Part shown: piece by piece, positions 9,278-40,442 of the stretch | How the letters are laid out: every line of letters begins with the position of its first letter | Position numbering within the stretch: position 1 is the stretch's first letter | Assembly: GCA_963978895.1 (NCBI GenBank) | Contig: OZ022241.1 | Coordinates: 10,432,356-10,496,355, forward strand | Direction of reading: 5' to 3' | From: Erpobdella octoculata | Lineage: Eukaryota > Annelida > Clitellata > Hirudinida > Erpobdellidae | DNA: 64,000 bases | Position numbers and translations under genes: made by a program | The notes under the pieces: model-generated | Database searches by the model: none | Told to the model about the DNA's origin: nothing | The model's input: only the letters and a program-made list of their open reading frames with translations

Positions 9278-9329
9278 ATGTTGTTTTGGTTTCTGTGTGA
9301 GCTTTCGGTAATCGGTTTAGTAGTAGCAG
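9278..9329 (+). CDS. Exon 1: signal peptide
   Basis: ATG followed by 16 mostly hydrophobic codons ([17 protein letters not shown]) and a strong donor G|GTAAGT, ending in phase 1. The length and the VVA-G cleavage context fit a secretory signal peptide, although the n-region lacks Lys/Arg and has one Glu. It splices in frame to 14795, giving G-F-A-E-L. The 5.5-kb intron that follows is filled with transposon remains. Confidence 0.6.

Positions 9330-40442: not shown

Follow-up and report, generated by a model that had tools for sequence, protein, structure and literature searches.

Fast-diverging clusters of membrane receptors house self/non-self and anti-pathogen recognition genes in several animals. 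Such clusters are easily missed, with domains below database thresholds and exons strewn among transposons. In Hydractinia, the Alr proteins are immunoglobulin-superfamily single-pass membrane proteins with low mutual identity, and the sections of the source used here describe at least 41 loci, mostly clustered in one genomic region (PMC11067881). PTC1, PTC2 and grctm6 of Biomphalaria are clusters of fast-evolving single-pass transmembrane genes thought to meet parasites, and some of them bear immunoglobulin (Ig) domains, as described in the sections of PMC10875847 used here. Immunoglobulin is not mentioned in the corresponding sections of PMC11426442 on the PTC clusters. Here, we analyze a gene in a 64,000-nucleotide stretch of the Erpobdella octoculata genome (C4:10432356-10496355, hereafter the window). 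With a probability of about three in four, judged from sequence, this locus is a real gene for a predicted type I single-pass membrane protein of the recognition type, with alternating Ig-like domains, and is an unlinked member of a family clustered on contig C7.

A possible likeness to Alr lies in the clustering of Ig-type genes. Within 1.7 Mb, C7 carries at least 20 B-type exons, which encode the longer Ig-like unit of the family, but a transmembrane exon was identified beside a single C7 member. Unlike in Alr, Ig-like units of about 65 (A) and about 108 (B) amino acids alternate, and the window gene is located outside its cluster. The alternating A-B layout is not mentioned in the sections of PMC10875847 and PMC11426442 on PTC. 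Both systems are likened by description only, and the family is filed neither as Alr nor as PTC. No description of the A-B family was recognized in the literature searched, with a search not keyed to species.

The gene was rebuilt on the forward strand as a chain of nine exons. All eight introns have GT..AG borders and are in phase 1, and the joined exons form a single open frame of 436 codons, followed by a stop, across 31 kb. The chain is exactly that proposed in an earlier, sequence-only reading of the window. The predicted protein consists of a signal peptide, A1, B1, L1, A2, B2, L2, L3 and a transmembrane helix. The layout is two A-B-L blocks plus an additional L, in which A is a short exon, B a long exon and L a mini-exon. 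The earlier reading described a cysteine-containing module, a second module and linkers. Its two-module layout holds, and each module is refined to an A, a B and a linker exon, giving four Ig-like units. The exons are as follows, all on the forward strand, with expect values (E) from comparisons described below.

9278..9329: exon 1, start codon and predicted signal peptide, phase-1 donor CAG/GTAAGT.
14795..14989: exon 2, A1, short Ig-like unit with C..W..G-x-Y-x-C (C7 profile, E 8e-10).
15093..15416: exon 3, B1, long Ig-like unit (C7 profile, E 4.6e-10; C7 query match, E 0.09).
25834..25866: exon 4, linker L1, 11 residues (resembles L2, E 2e-5).
30636..30833: exon 5, A2, short Ig-like unit (C7 profile, E 5.2e-11).
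33007..33330: exon 6, B2, long Ig-like unit (C7 profile, E 3.3e-8; structure model and fold search).
33663..33695: exon 7, linker L2, 11 residues (resembles L1).
39915..39956: exon 8, linker L3, 14 residues, the weakest exon (resembles L1, E 0.011).
40333..40442: exon 9, transmembrane helix, tail of 7-8 residues and stop (hydrophobicity scan).

All internal exons are phase 1-1 and have lengths of 3n. In this they are similar to the shuffled modules that follow the class 1-1 exon rule of animal modular extracellular proteins (sections of PMC8001218), but A and B of the window gene occur only as a pair. Such symmetric exons would permit domain duplication, skipping or shuffling without breaking the frame. 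L3 is the weakest part of the gene model, with poor donor and acceptor scores, and could be skipped without a frame change. Exon 1 is the sole signal-peptide-type ATG exon within 14.8 kb upstream, at thresholds set on exon 1 itself, and none was found in a control of 400 kb strand-bases (35 kb of these N). In the 6.6 kb searched, about 0.03 final exons with the hydrophobicity of exon 9 are expected; less hydrophobic candidates are located nearby, for example at 34503-34654.

Comparison of the two halves indicates that the A-B-L block is duplicated inside the window gene. A1 and A2 share 31 identical residues of 64/65, and B1 and B2 share 57 of 107, in the same order. The DNA similarity extends into the introns. 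The linker exons resemble each other as well (L1 and L2, 43 nucleotides at 77%; L1 and L3, 42 nucleotides at 74%; L2 and L3, weakly, E 0.14 within the exon), and the duplicated unit is therefore probably A-B-L. The four gaps between the exon copies measure 3, 3, 3 and 6 bases, all multiples of three, whereas those between the intron copies include 1, 2, 4, 5 and 12. In simple simulations with uniform substitution, run at the divergence observed, an open frame was kept in 11-13% of the trials for A and in 2.2-2.6% for B.

The relatives of the gene were found on another contig. In a search of its own genome (386 Mb, 94 contigs), A2 retrieved A1, itself and four weak matches (E 0.003, 0.19, 2.9 and 4.5). 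All four are on C7 within 405 kb and are free of stops. Three of these slices (L031, L033 and L034) have a B-like exon behind the A-like exon; for the fourth, L032, a B exon lies about 2.2 kb downstream, in L046. When exons of the C7 B type were used as queries, at least 21 matches were found with one (20 on C7), at least 17 with another (16 on C7) and at least 13 with a further one (12 on C7); these counts are lower bounds. The remaining match of the second query is B1 of the window. The union of the C7 queries contains at least 20 distinct B-type exons, all open, at C7 26.10-27.80 Mb. Fifteen of the 20 are located at 26.92-27.16 Mb on the forward strand, with E values of 1.7e-4 or lower. The other five are weaker (E 0.07 to 3.1); the further C7 query ties two of these, L047 and L048, to the main block (E 0.003), and L031, L049 and L050 each have an A exon upstream. 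An A-type exon precedes 13 of the 20 B exons, and the remaining seven were read only about 500 bases upstream. Splice borders of the C7 exons match the window positions wherever they can be placed. This recurrence of exon types with identical borders was counted as evidence beyond chance.

Profiles were built from the 13 A and 20 B rows of C7, and compared with the four window exons and 2,000 shuffles. All four exons match, with E values from 5.2e-11 for A2 to 3.3e-8 for B2, whereas the best shuffles reached 0.14 with the A profile and 0.0094 with the B profile. Four of the 13 A rows were originally found through A2 and the other nine beside B exons; the B rows came through C7 B queries or beside the A exons found through A2. 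The A and B exons of the window gene are thus homologous to those of the C7 A-B family, and agree with them in order and in their phase-1 borders. These comparisons indicate that the window gene belongs, as an unlinked member, to a family found elsewhere as a cluster at C7 26.1-27.8 Mb, and is not a one-off. Identity is 54% between B1 and B2 but 15-23% between B2 and the 20 C7 exons, and the duplication within the gene therefore looks younger than the split from the C7 exons examined.

Outside this family, none of 3,924 word-sharing candidates of a large protein collection matches the joined protein at E 1 or lower. No match was found in phages or in Rfam, and two peptide patterns gave no confirmed match in viral contigs. 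No further copy is present in 264 kb around the window (17.5 kb of that N). The B2 search of the genome retrieved B1, B2 and five weak matches (L024-L028, on C91, C3 (two), C85 and C6), which were rejected as spurious, being repetitive sequence with stops.

Several other features were observed on C7. A third Ig-like exon type of about 75-80 residues, with a W and GVYNC, is located upstream of the A-B pair at L033:302-535 and L034:412-657, so that three or more domain types may occur in C7 genes. The open B-type exon at L041:533-871 (C7:27117400-27118270) has its first core cysteine replaced by serine, and is a possible decaying or altered member. The B exons of L047 (C7:26102800-26103620, minus strand) and L048 (26209450-26210290, plus strand) are 92% identical in opposite orientation, 107 kb apart and distant from the main block.

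The A unit has the signature C..W..G-x-[YF]-x-C. The C, W, G and C are present in all 15 members, with Y or F at position 48. All 40 matches of the A profile in PDB are immunoglobulin-superfamily chains, many of them Fc receptor variants. The core cysteines are 63 residues apart in B and 27 apart in A. In the immunoglobulin superfamily they are usually about 55-75 residues apart; B fits this spacing and A does not. The model of B2 is an all-beta sandwich of modest confidence. Its nearest matches are VCAM-1/ICAM, in a fold search against a finite fold list in which an absent family does not count as excluded. The second domain of VCAM-1/ICAM and Fc gamma receptor II are among the closest known systems; however, the joined A2-B2 has no PDB match by single-sequence search, and A has only 27 residues between its cysteines. 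In Pfam, no Ig family exceeded the cut-off in any of the 15 A members. Ig_2 was matched in 4 of 22 B members, below the cut-off (best E 0.018), and one member matched DUF3836 at 0.0038. A profile search of the joined 436-residue protein, suggested with the earlier reading, likewise returned nothing above the Pfam cut-off. This cut-off is a detection threshold and not a structural definition of the Ig fold; as it was not reached, we use the term 'Ig-like'. The earlier description of an Ig-like single-pass membrane protein is supported by the C7 exon cluster, the B model and the A profile matches. Its role in recognition or adhesion is inferred only, with a recognition-type protein as the best reading.

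The pattern of divergence indicates that the family is protein-coding and diverging fast. For the window pair, dN is 0.37 and dS 0.55, with an omega of 0.66 (0.43-1.01). The intron K is 0.30, and exons and flanks are 70% and 75% identical, with no difference between them (Fisher 0.16). The C7 pairs gave omega values of 0.33-1.06 over 12 comparisons, two significantly below 1. Positive selection was not detected in the window pair, and none of the 12 C7 comparisons is significantly above 1. C7 exons are at least as conserved as their flanks; the exception is exon A, which in both C7 pairs compared is slightly less conserved than the A-B intron. Between B1 and B2, aligned residues 31-60 are identical at 10 of 30 positions, compared to 47 of 75 elsewhere (Fisher 0.009, for a split picked after seeing the data).

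Other explanations were weighed against these data. The locus might be a decayed member of the family: after departing from the C7 cluster and duplicating its block, it would now be a relic without expression, with exons open by luck or youth. Isolation on C4 with no other copy within 100 kb on either side, exon divergence at the pace of introns, invasion of the introns by transposons and the weak L3 splice sites are all consistent with this. However, all eight junctions and the entire frame are intact, the identified elements are all intronic, and the simulated chance that the A and B frames are both open is about 0.003 (0.11-0.13 times 0.022-0.026). We consider a relic unlikely. That the two A-B-L blocks belong to two separate adjacent genes, rather than to one two-module gene, is the least probable explanation. 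The blocks are 15 kb apart, and a transposon-filled intron of 10.4 kb precedes L1. Yet L1 lies between the blocks and keeps the phase, the last exon with the strongest hydrophobicity follows the second block, and a single signal-peptide exon lies upstream at the thresholds used, none having been sought between the blocks.

A gamete-recognition protein of the sperm or egg surface would also be single-pass and Ig-like, and the short tail and fast divergence of the window gene fit binding or fusion proteins, perhaps including those of the IZUMO1 type. For such proteins, clustering as a family with a longer tail in at least one member seems less typical, and we regard this function as improbable. 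Our preferred reading, a recognition-type membrane protein of the C7 family, would place short and long Ig-like domains in alternation outside the cell, joined by small flexible hinge exons. The protein would sit on the cell surface and bind a partner through its B domains, which could be a protein of another cell, a pathogen molecule or itself. Residues 31-60 of B, the most different between the copies, would be part of these partner-binding domains. As there is almost no cytoplasmic tail, any signaling would need a partner chain; alternatively, the protein could serve as a ligand, adhesin or decoy.

The window gene ends shortly behind its helix, whereas the single C7 member followed downstream appears to splice into more tail. 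In that member, a likely transmembrane exon (L052:3273-3380, phase 1-1), picked by eye among open reading frames (ORFs), lies about 3.2 kb behind the L034 B exon. This exon, preceded by a weak acceptor, also encodes the first, basic residues of a tail, which would continue in a further exon; the scan behind the L034 B exon yielded no linker exon. The coexistence of a tail-less window form and a tailed C7 form would be in keeping with a role as ligand, adapter-coupled receptor or decoy. More tentatively, C7 could harbor a recognition complex not described before, with an immune or self/non-self role, whose alternating mini-Ig and long-Ig domains go unseen by domain databases. The window gene would then belong to this complex as an unlinked part, a nearly tail-less receptor, ligand or decoy that escaped to another chromosome. 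Starting from one stray gene, the analysis arrived at a cluster of at least 20 related exons, of which 13 belong to A-B pairs. Should the C7 complex prove to be expressed and polymorphic, it would offer a direct test of how a repertoire is built and of the fate of a member after it leaves the cluster.

The introns contain the following transposable elements, including long terminal repeat (LTR) elements and a possible long interspersed nuclear element (LINE).

15417..25833, forward strand: intron 3, with pieces of an LTR element (reverse transcriptase at 21232-21474 and integrase at 22720-23046, read as gypsy) into which a copia element is inserted.
18114-21196: copia element in intron 3, nested in another LTR element (Pfam and LTRs).
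23314-23670: additional reverse-transcriptase piece in intron 3, putatively LINE.
24539-24865: RNase H piece in intron 3.
34148..36025, unstranded: non-autonomous LTR element in intron 7, with LTRs at 34148-34342 and 35831-36025 that differ at 7 of 195 positions.
39416..39640, forward strand: piggyBac transposase fragment (Pfam DDE_Tnp_1_7, E 3.5e-5, 23.7 bits, cut-off 22.4).

Some of the reverse-transcriptase, integrase and RNase H pieces are below the Pfam cut-off, and the gypsy and LINE labels are tentative and based on domain order. The sequence-only reading had listed gypsy, copia, LINE, hAT, piggyBac and non-autonomous LTR elements. Copia and piggyBac are confirmed by Pfam and the non-autonomous LTR element by its repeats, gypsy and LINE are kept as putative, and hAT is not confirmed, as the ORF at 32088-32351 matched no Pfam family. 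The 187-base LTRs of the copia element differ at one place and its flanks share TTACT, indicating that this insertion is recent. The ORF at 39416-39640 contains VGQYTC and is Ig-like by eye, but was rejected as an Ig domain because its Pfam match is piggyBac transposase. Inside the non-autonomous LTR element is an acidic ORF containing internal repeats of 24 bases. Its start resembles that of ORFs at 15959-16441 and, outside the window, about 60 kb upstream.

Upstream of the window, at a distance of about 78-88 kb and on the minus strand, are pieces of a polycystin-type gene (L003:1852-2418 and L004:1-2364), with Pfam matches to PKD_channel (E 1.2e-28) and PKD domains (E 1.1e-23). A short ORF at 44750-45034 of the window has a weak match to the Psq helix-turn-helix (E 7.5e-4), just under the Pfam cut-off, and is perhaps a piece of a pogo-type transposon.
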